The notes under the pieces are model-generated. The model was given only the letters and a program-made list of their open reading frames with translations, made no database searches and was not told the DNA's origin. Below, piece by piece: positions 26,326 through 26,778 of a stretch of DNA of 34,542 nt. The position numbers were made by a program, and so were the translations under genes. The first letter of the stretch is position 1; the number at the start of each line of letters is the position of its first letter. The stretch comes from Alphaproteobacteria bacterium (GTDB taxonomy: Bacteria; Pseudomonadota; Alphaproteobacteria; Rhodobacterales; Rhodobacteraceae): assembly GCA_003331935.1 (NCBI GenBank), contig QOQE01000018.1, forward strand, positions 1-34,542, read 5' to 3'.

Positions 26326-26778
26326 ATGACGTCACACAATCAAGTTAATTCTACGCAAGCTCCTTGGGGGCAGCATTTAGTGCTAGACTTTAATGGATGC
26401 TCTAAAGAACTTTTATCTAACAAAGAAAATATTCTTAATTGGAGTAAAGAGCTAGTGGAAGCTATTGATATGGTTGCCTATGGTGAGCCGATCATTGAGC
26501 ATTTTGCTACACATTCTCATGAGGCGGCCGGCTACACTTTACTTCAGATGATTGAAACTTCAAATATTGCTGCGCACTTTGCGGAAAATATTGGACAGGC
26601 ATATATTGATGTTTTTTCATGCAAAGCATTCGATGTTGAGGTGGCGCTTGAAGTATGCAAAAAATATTTCAATCCAGCCAAATTCAATATGCATAGTATG
26701 GACCGCGGGTTCCATAAGAATGATCAGGCTGGGGAAAGAAATTTTTCTAAGGAGGTTCAAAATGAACAGGCGGCCTAA
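26326..26778 (+). CDS. Divergent AdoMet decarboxylase-like protein (pyruvoyl-type paralog)
   Basis: This 150-residue protein is related to the bacterial SpeD fold (GQHLVLDFNGC at the start, AYIDVFSCKAFD at the end). In canonical SpeD the residues Ser63, His68 and Cys83 (Thermotoga numbering) form the pyruvoyl group, processing base and proton donor. Here Ser79, His84 and Cys99 have exactly the same spacing (+5, +20). The motif ESHISIHTWPE, however, is replaced by ETSNIAAHFAE. The Glu before the Ser is Thr, Ser55 aligns with Thr71, and the Trp and Glu after the His are lost. It may be a pyruvoyl decarboxylase with another substrate (ornithine or arginine), or a non-catalytic partner. It is first in the operon, with a strong AAGGAG site, and overlaps speE by 17 nt. 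Confidence 0.75.
   Translation: MTSHNQVNSTQAPWGQHLVLDFNGCSKELLSNKENILNWSKELVEAIDMVAYGEPIIEHFATHSHEAAGYTLLQMIETSNIAAHFAENIGQAYIDVFSCKAFDVEVALEVCKKYFNPAKFNMHSMDRGFHKNDQAGERNFSKEVQNEQAA

Follow-up and report, generated by a model that had tools for sequence, protein, structure and literature searches.

A SpeD-family protein predicted to act as a pyruvoyl ornithine decarboxylase in an alphaproteobacterial speDC–speE–speD operon

Introduction

SpeD homologues that act as ornithine decarboxylases, named SpeDC, are described in the relevant sections of Li et al. 2023 (PMC10407285), where four diagnostic residues are given: Gln at position 1, Thr at position 2, Phe at position 3 and Tyr at position 4. 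SpeD-derived arginine decarboxylases, SpeDA, are a further outcome reported in those sections, as are SpeD–SpeDC fusions, some of which have a degraded SpeDC domain. SpeDC is already known in phages: the portions of a PNAS 2023 paper dealing with these proteins (PMC9992855) present the HTVC201P protein as an assayed phage arginine decarboxylase, and the phiN3 protein, able to restore spermidine to a speD mutant, as the one AdoMet decarboxylase (AdoMetDC) among phage ornithine decarboxylase proteins. Elsewhere in the family, the trypanosome AdoMetDC acts together with a catalytically dead paralogue, the prozyme, as stated in the pertinent part of PMC5201418, and fusions of AdoMetDC to an aminopropyltransferase feature in parts of PMC11107197 and PMC12803844.

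Here, we analyse a SpeD-like gene in a window of 34,542 nucleotides, the whole stretch of DNA under study, from an alphaproteobacterial genome that is 90% complete. The initial annotation of this window described the gene product as a SpeD paralogue that keeps the catalytic residues and loses the AdoMet motif. It proposed that the protein could be a pyruvoyl decarboxylase supplying putrescine within a self-contained spermidine operon or, alternatively, a prozyme-like activator of SpeD.

Results

The speDC candidate is a conserved member of the SpeD family

The reading frame of the speDC candidate is uninterrupted from its ATG to its TAA, and the product matches the PF02675 model with 79.7 bits, against a cut-off of 25 (Table 1). 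Membership of this family indicates that the likeness of the 150 aa protein to SpeD reflects homology, not chance. The protein scored 46.5 bits with the NCBI equivalog model for AdoMetDC (TIGR03330), under the cut-off of 75.65, and is not classed as a canonical SpeD by that model. Comparison with 13 same-genus copies gave dN/dS values of 0.06–0.12, similar to those of SpeE (0.07–0.11); many dS values exceed 1, and the ratios are rough. Purifying selection acts on the speDC candidate, and we rejected the possibility of a pseudogene on the same rough values.

Table 1. Coordinates of the speDC candidate, its predicted functional residues and the adjoining genes
Feature	Position	Strand	Evidence
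speDC candidate, 150 aa, SpeD-family pyruvoyl L-ornithine decarboxylase (predicted)	26326..26778	+	PF02675 E 2.5e-22; Q74, T78, S79, H84, F85, Y93, C99
Thr78 and Ser79 codons, predicted self-cleavage and pyruvoyl site	26557..26562	+	S79 aligned with T. maritima Ser63; Ser invariant in 12/12 relatives; cleavage putative
His84 (catalytic) and Phe85 (SpeDC residue 3) codons	26575..26580	+	Alignment, residue reading
Tyr93 (SpeDC residue 4) to Cys99 (catalytic) codons	26602..26622	+	Alignment, residue reading
speE, spermidine synthase, 303 aa	26762..27673	+	PF01564 E 6.4e-58; TIGR00417 288.9 bits vs cut-off 249.55
speD, canonical AdoMet decarboxylase, 137 aa	27675..28088	+	PF02675 E 1.6e-31; TIGR03330 120 bits vs cut-off 75.65

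A phmmer alignment placed Ser79, His84 and Cys99 on the catalytic residues of T. maritima SpeD, named Ser63, His68 and Cys83 in the relevant section of PMC10407285, with no gap in that stretch. These three residues, together with Thr71, are as the initial annotation had them, and the downstream SpeD has Ser78, His83, Cys98 and Ser70. The Ser, His and Cys were invariant in 12 of the 12 aligned relatives, and the loss of Ser from close homologues, which would have counted against a catalytic role, was not seen among them. The reported loss of the AdoMet motif also stands, with T. maritima Glu62, Thr69, Trp70, Pro71 and Glu72 replaced by Thr78, Phe85, Ala86, Glu87 and Asn88. The pair of 11-residue motifs originally quoted in its support was, however, one residue out of register, as ESHISIHTWPE of SpeD pairs with TSNIAAHFAEN.

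A structure prediction, which the initial annotation had suggested, was built from 12 sequences. The best model had a mean pLDDT of 81.5 (the other four, 64, 56, 53 and 41) and a class 1b AdoMetDC-type fold; its best structural match was T. maritima AdoMetDC (E 1.2e-10, TM-score 0.87 by target). The match of the modelled fold is silent on substrate.

A tree of 41 rows and 144 columns, in which the window's protein and its close kin formed seven SpeDC rows, separated the SpeDC rows, the phage arginine decarboxylase rows and phiN3 from the SpeD rows with support of 100/98. Two SpeD loci, L127 and L130, were dropped, as the pattern missed both. The grouping of the SpeDC rows as a single clade was weakly supported (76/0) in this tree, in which long branches were flagged. 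Given the depth of the split from SpeD, we rejected the idea that the gene arose by recent local duplication of the speD in its operon.

speDC, speE and speD form a conserved operon

The end of speDC and the start of speE overlap by 17 bases, speD starts one base past the end of speE, and by eye a purine run resembling a ribosome-binding site accompanies each of the three genes. PF02675 was searched in 41 genomes, comprising the window's own and 40 relatives, with 22 of the same genus. Within the genus, 14 of the 22 had two matches each, while the remaining eight had none. In all 14 carriers the order and strand of speDC–speE–speD were identical and the spacing was near-constant, with the end of speE 880–895 bases and the end of speD 1304–1310 bases downstream of the speDC stop. 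Completeness of the genus genomes ranged from 58 to 91%, and that of the eight genomes lacking the operon from 58 to 80%. The chance that incompleteness alone accounts for at least eight absences was 0.16, and we therefore do not take these eight genomes as cases of true absence.

Diagnostic residues favour ornithine as substrate

We took the diagnostic columns to be S-5, S-1, H+1 and C-6, from the text order and spacing in the section of PMC10407285 that describes the residues. At these inferred columns the speDC candidate has Gln74, Thr78, Phe85 and Tyr93, the published set in kind and order, and the same four residues were present in the copies from all 14 same-genus carrier genomes. Reading the columns in 41 rows, we found none of the four residues in any of the 16 SpeD rows, T. 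maritima included. Three alphaproteobacterial rows had three of the four, with Phe in place of Tyr in families f29 and f6, and Thr in place of Phe in family f80. Of the two assayed phage controls, HTVC201P has Gln, Thr, Ser and Gln, and phiN3, which was the best phage match of the speDC candidate, has Gln, Asp, Phe and Tyr and lacks WPE. Since phiN3 restored spermidine without WPE, the loss of that motif is by itself no proof that AdoMet decarboxylation has been lost.

The residue pattern favours ornithine over arginine as the substrate of the speDC candidate. The foremost alternative is that the protein is a SpeDA, a pyruvoyl enzyme forming agmatine from arginine, with a ureohydrolase then releasing putrescine. 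In favour of this reading, HTVC201P groups on the speDC candidate's side of the tree and agrees with it in Gln and Thr; against it, HTVC201P has Ser and Gln where the candidate has Phe85 and Tyr93. The window's genome also encodes two ureohydrolases (L093:1773-2585 and L094:2404-3390), one arginase-like and one guanidinopropionase-like. The arginase-like protein exceeds the cut-off of an agmatinase model by 3.4 bits (177.7 vs 174.3), yet its nearest solved chains are named arginase (1.8e-67), far closer than the best agmatinase (1.1e-31); we take these arginase chains to be plant enzymes. The other ureohydrolase is nearest to 3-guanidinopropionase (2.6e-47). Moreover, PF04371, the agmatine deiminase (AguA) family, had no match in any of the 22 same-genus genomes. 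We regard the arginine route as unlikely. The arginase-like protein could be a source of ornithine, fitting the sequence-based assignment as SpeDC.

No other ornithine or arginine decarboxylase was found in the genus

The initial annotation noted that the window holds no other ornithine or arginine decarboxylase gene, and we found that this extends to the window's own genome, where LysA is the sole PF02784 protein, and PF01276 and PF04371 gave no match. Across the genus, LysA was the only PF02784 (fold-III) decarboxylase in 20 of 22 genomes, and the remaining two had none. The PF02784 genes of these 20 genomes were 63–100% identical to the window's own LysA; in one genome LysA is split into two overlapping ORFs, and hence gives two matches. 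A PLP-dependent ornithine decarboxylase was thus not found by PF02784 in the 22 same-genus genomes, most of which are incomplete. Nor did PF01276 give a match over its cut-off in this set, the nearest being a sub-threshold score of 22.8 of the 27 bits in genome G003. Among three further genera sampled from that genus's family, two (G022 and G023) encode an additional PF02784 protein whose closest matches are lysine/ornithine or ornithine decarboxylases, and in the third (G024) both PF02784 copies are LysA.

SpeDC relatives occur in other genomic contexts

An alignment of SpeDC searched against 385 sampled genomes of the class matched 11 at E 1e-12, the window's own included. Four of these had all four diagnostic residues and three had three, and the four weakest were unmatched by the residue patterns. 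In a sample of the phylum, the window's own genome was the single match among 398 at E 1e-15. Peptide patterns recovered 16 loci from the genome_contigs collection, two of which also showed the speDC–speE–speD order, one labelled Micavibrio and the other from an unclassified proteobacterium. At L019:4393-7352, in a Sedimenticola MAG, a SpeDC relative is followed downstream by nspC (411.8 bits, cut-off 409.05) and by a homologue of carboxynorspermidine synthase (491.5 bits, under the cut-off of 800). This route requires a diamine and not decarboxylated AdoMet, and an assayed SpeDC of Ca. Electrothrix has the same nspC-type neighbourhood, as described in the corresponding section of PMC10407285. 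In two other families (L118:4616-6080 and L119:5082-6734), the SpeDC-like gene adjoins hemB, and a second PF02675 match lies on a different contig.

Separately, family f104 (L123:3954-5697, L122:4853-6553 and L124:4668-6486) encodes a divergent SpeD-like protein of ~123–144 aa with a weak SpeD-family match, always beside an ORF of 439–463 aa of unknown kind.

SpeDC is fused to SpeE in a second alphaproteobacterial family

At two loci, L116:4238-5503 (-) and L117:5113-6510 (+), SpeDC is fused in frame to SpeE. The two genomes belong to another alphaproteobacterial family, f46, and are 69 and 75% complete; samples of the family and order around the fusion genome contained just these same two. 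The 421 aa ORF of L116 matches PF02675 at 16–127 and PF01564 at 184–362, and exceeds the cut-off of the speE model (266.9 vs 249.55 bits); the L117 frame has both domains too. Both fusions carry all four SpeDC residues, and in both genomes the same contig holds a separate SpeD match and a second aminopropyltransferase, with an amine oxidase in addition at L116. The presence of the fusion in two genomes makes an assembly error unlikely.

The varied company kept by SpeDC relatives speaks to the proposal that the protein is a non-catalytic, prozyme-like partner activating the neighbouring SpeD. Such a role would suit a gene beside SpeD, and it has parallels in the trypanosome paralogue (relevant part of PMC5201418) and in the degraded SpeDC domains of some SpeD–SpeDC fusions (same section of PMC10407285), but Ser, His and Cys are invariant in the 12 aligned relatives, where a prozyme would be expected to have lost them. 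Furthermore, the gene adjoins hemB in two families, its fusion partner in f46 is SpeE and not SpeD, and the Sedimenticola relative sits with nspC. We consequently regard this suggestion of the initial annotation as very unlikely. Equally improbable is a second AdoMet decarboxylase, or an enzyme with dual activity towards AdoMet and an amino acid, as phiN3 might suggest (Q/D/F/Y without WPE, yet active in the speD mutant; portions of PMC9992855 cited above), since the operon already has a canonical SpeD, the residue preceding the Ser in the speDC candidate is Thr instead of Glu or Asp, the candidate scores under the AdoMetDC model cut-off, and the 100/98 split sets it apart from SpeD, though phiN3 falls on its side.

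Viral relatives form a sister group to most cellular SpeDC rows

A scan of the viral_contigs collection returned 92 related loci. We kept the best 80 (L143–L222), which were 42–60% identical to the query. The Gln...ThrSer....His...Tyr pattern was present in 79 of these best 80. Residue 3 was Phe in 30, Leu in 33, Met in eight and Ser in one of the 72 loci read directly; in seven further loci a SpeD-like ORF was met first, and residue 3 was left out of the count. A SpeE-like pattern was found inside the 3 kb flanks of one of the 79 loci. Removal of near-copies at 85% identity reduced the 79 viral rows to 30, which clustered together (88/79) as the sister of 14 cellular rows (97/81), with the f80 row outside; the bootstrap of this tree was not fully settled, and rows L121_f6, L132_SpeD and L023_B23 were left out of it.

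In a further viral locus, L022 (MW495066.1, recorded as Microcystis phage MaAM05), two SpeD-family genes and speE adjoin one another. The second of its SpeD homologues lacks the SpeDC residues.

Discussion

We propose that the protein encoded at 26326-26778 is SpeDC, a pyruvoyl ornithine decarboxylase in a full ornithine-to-spermidine operon, a reading to which we assign a probability of roughly 0.85 on the strength of sequence comparisons. For this operon we infer the following self-cleavage, substrate and flux. SpeDC would adopt the class 1b AdoMet decarboxylase fold, cut itself before Ser79 to generate a pyruvoyl cofactor, and decarboxylate L-ornithine to putrescine. SpeD would make decarboxylated AdoMet, and SpeE would join putrescine with the SpeD product to give spermidine, so that speDC–speE–speD would constitute a complete pathway from ornithine to spermidine that relies on two pyruvoyl enzymes and dispenses with a PLP decarboxylase. 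The original suggestion of a putrescine-supplying pyruvoyl decarboxylase in a self-contained operon thus gains support from the four SpeDC residues, from a layout shared by 14 of 14 carriers, and from the finding of no other ornithine or arginine decarboxylase in 22 genomes, most of them incomplete. The fusion of relatives to SpeE and the placement of the Sedimenticola relative beside nspC, in a route independent of decarboxylated AdoMet, also count in favour of SpeDC.

If this reading is right, it places SpeDC in a small-genome alphaproteobacterial genus where our searches returned no PLP ornithine decarboxylase; of the three further genera sampled in that family, two encode an ornithine decarboxylase-like PLP protein. 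The genus would be a clean case for asking whether there is an advantage in replacing a PLP enzyme with a small pyruvoyl one. Its single-cell relatives bear names that suggest a marine genus, and our literature search found no report of a marine alphaproteobacterial pyruvoyl ornithine decarboxylase.

The SpeDC–SpeE fusion is the most interesting by-product of this analysis and looks new, as a literature search of open-licence papers found no fusion of this kind. A fusion of AdoMetDC to an aminopropyltransferase is reportedly also the subject of work by Green (2011). The SpeDC–SpeE protein would take ornithine towards spermidine on a single chain. We tentatively suggest, while holding it slightly less probable than the contrary, that SpeDC and SpeE constitute a coupled unit, represented in the window's genus by genes that overlap and in family f46 by a single polypeptide that would lead from ornithine through putrescine to spermidine, perhaps passing putrescine between its domains. 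As part of the same tentative proposal, this bacterial SpeDC lineage, the nearest cellular kin found here of the large viral SpeDC group, may be close to the source of the phage gene. The viral sister group bears in any case on the origin of phage speDC genes.

The kind of enzyme is already known, and the 26326-26778 protein is very probably a further example of the SpeDC published in 2023 (PMC10407285, in the sections on SpeDC). In common with the proteins described there, it belongs to the class 1b SpeD family, keeps Ser, His and Cys, has Gln, Thr, Phe and Tyr, and is clustered with speD and speE, in a 90% complete genome where no canonical SpeA or SpeC was found. Its host is alphaproteobacterial, and those sections name no SpeDC from that class. 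The assignment is based on the published description of the residues and on a tree that separates the protein from SpeD. SpeDA (same sections, and HTVC201P in the portions of PMC9992855 cited above) is alike in family, catalytic residues and loss of the AdoMet motif, but differs at Phe85 and Tyr93, where HTVC201P has Ser and Gln, and the window's genome is without a clear agmatine route. The trypanosomatid prozyme (pertinent part of PMC5201418) is likewise a SpeD-family paralogue encoded with AdoMetDC, but is catalytically dead, whereas the catalytic residues of the speDC candidate are invariant. The L116 and L117 fusions resemble the AdoMetDC–aminopropyltransferase fusions described in parts of PMC11107197 and PMC12803844 in having a SpeD-family domain ahead of the aminopropyltransferase; in those proteins the N-terminal domain is a working AdoMetDC, whereas that of L116 and L117 is SpeDC-like, with a separate SpeD encoded nearby. 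Finally, the related viral loci share with phage SpeDC (same portions of PMC9992855) an identically spaced set of Gln, Thr, Ser, His and Tyr, in 79 of the best 80; in contrast to the speDC candidate, most of these viral genes have neither speE nor speD within 3 kb, and their counterpart of Phe85 is often Leu or Met.
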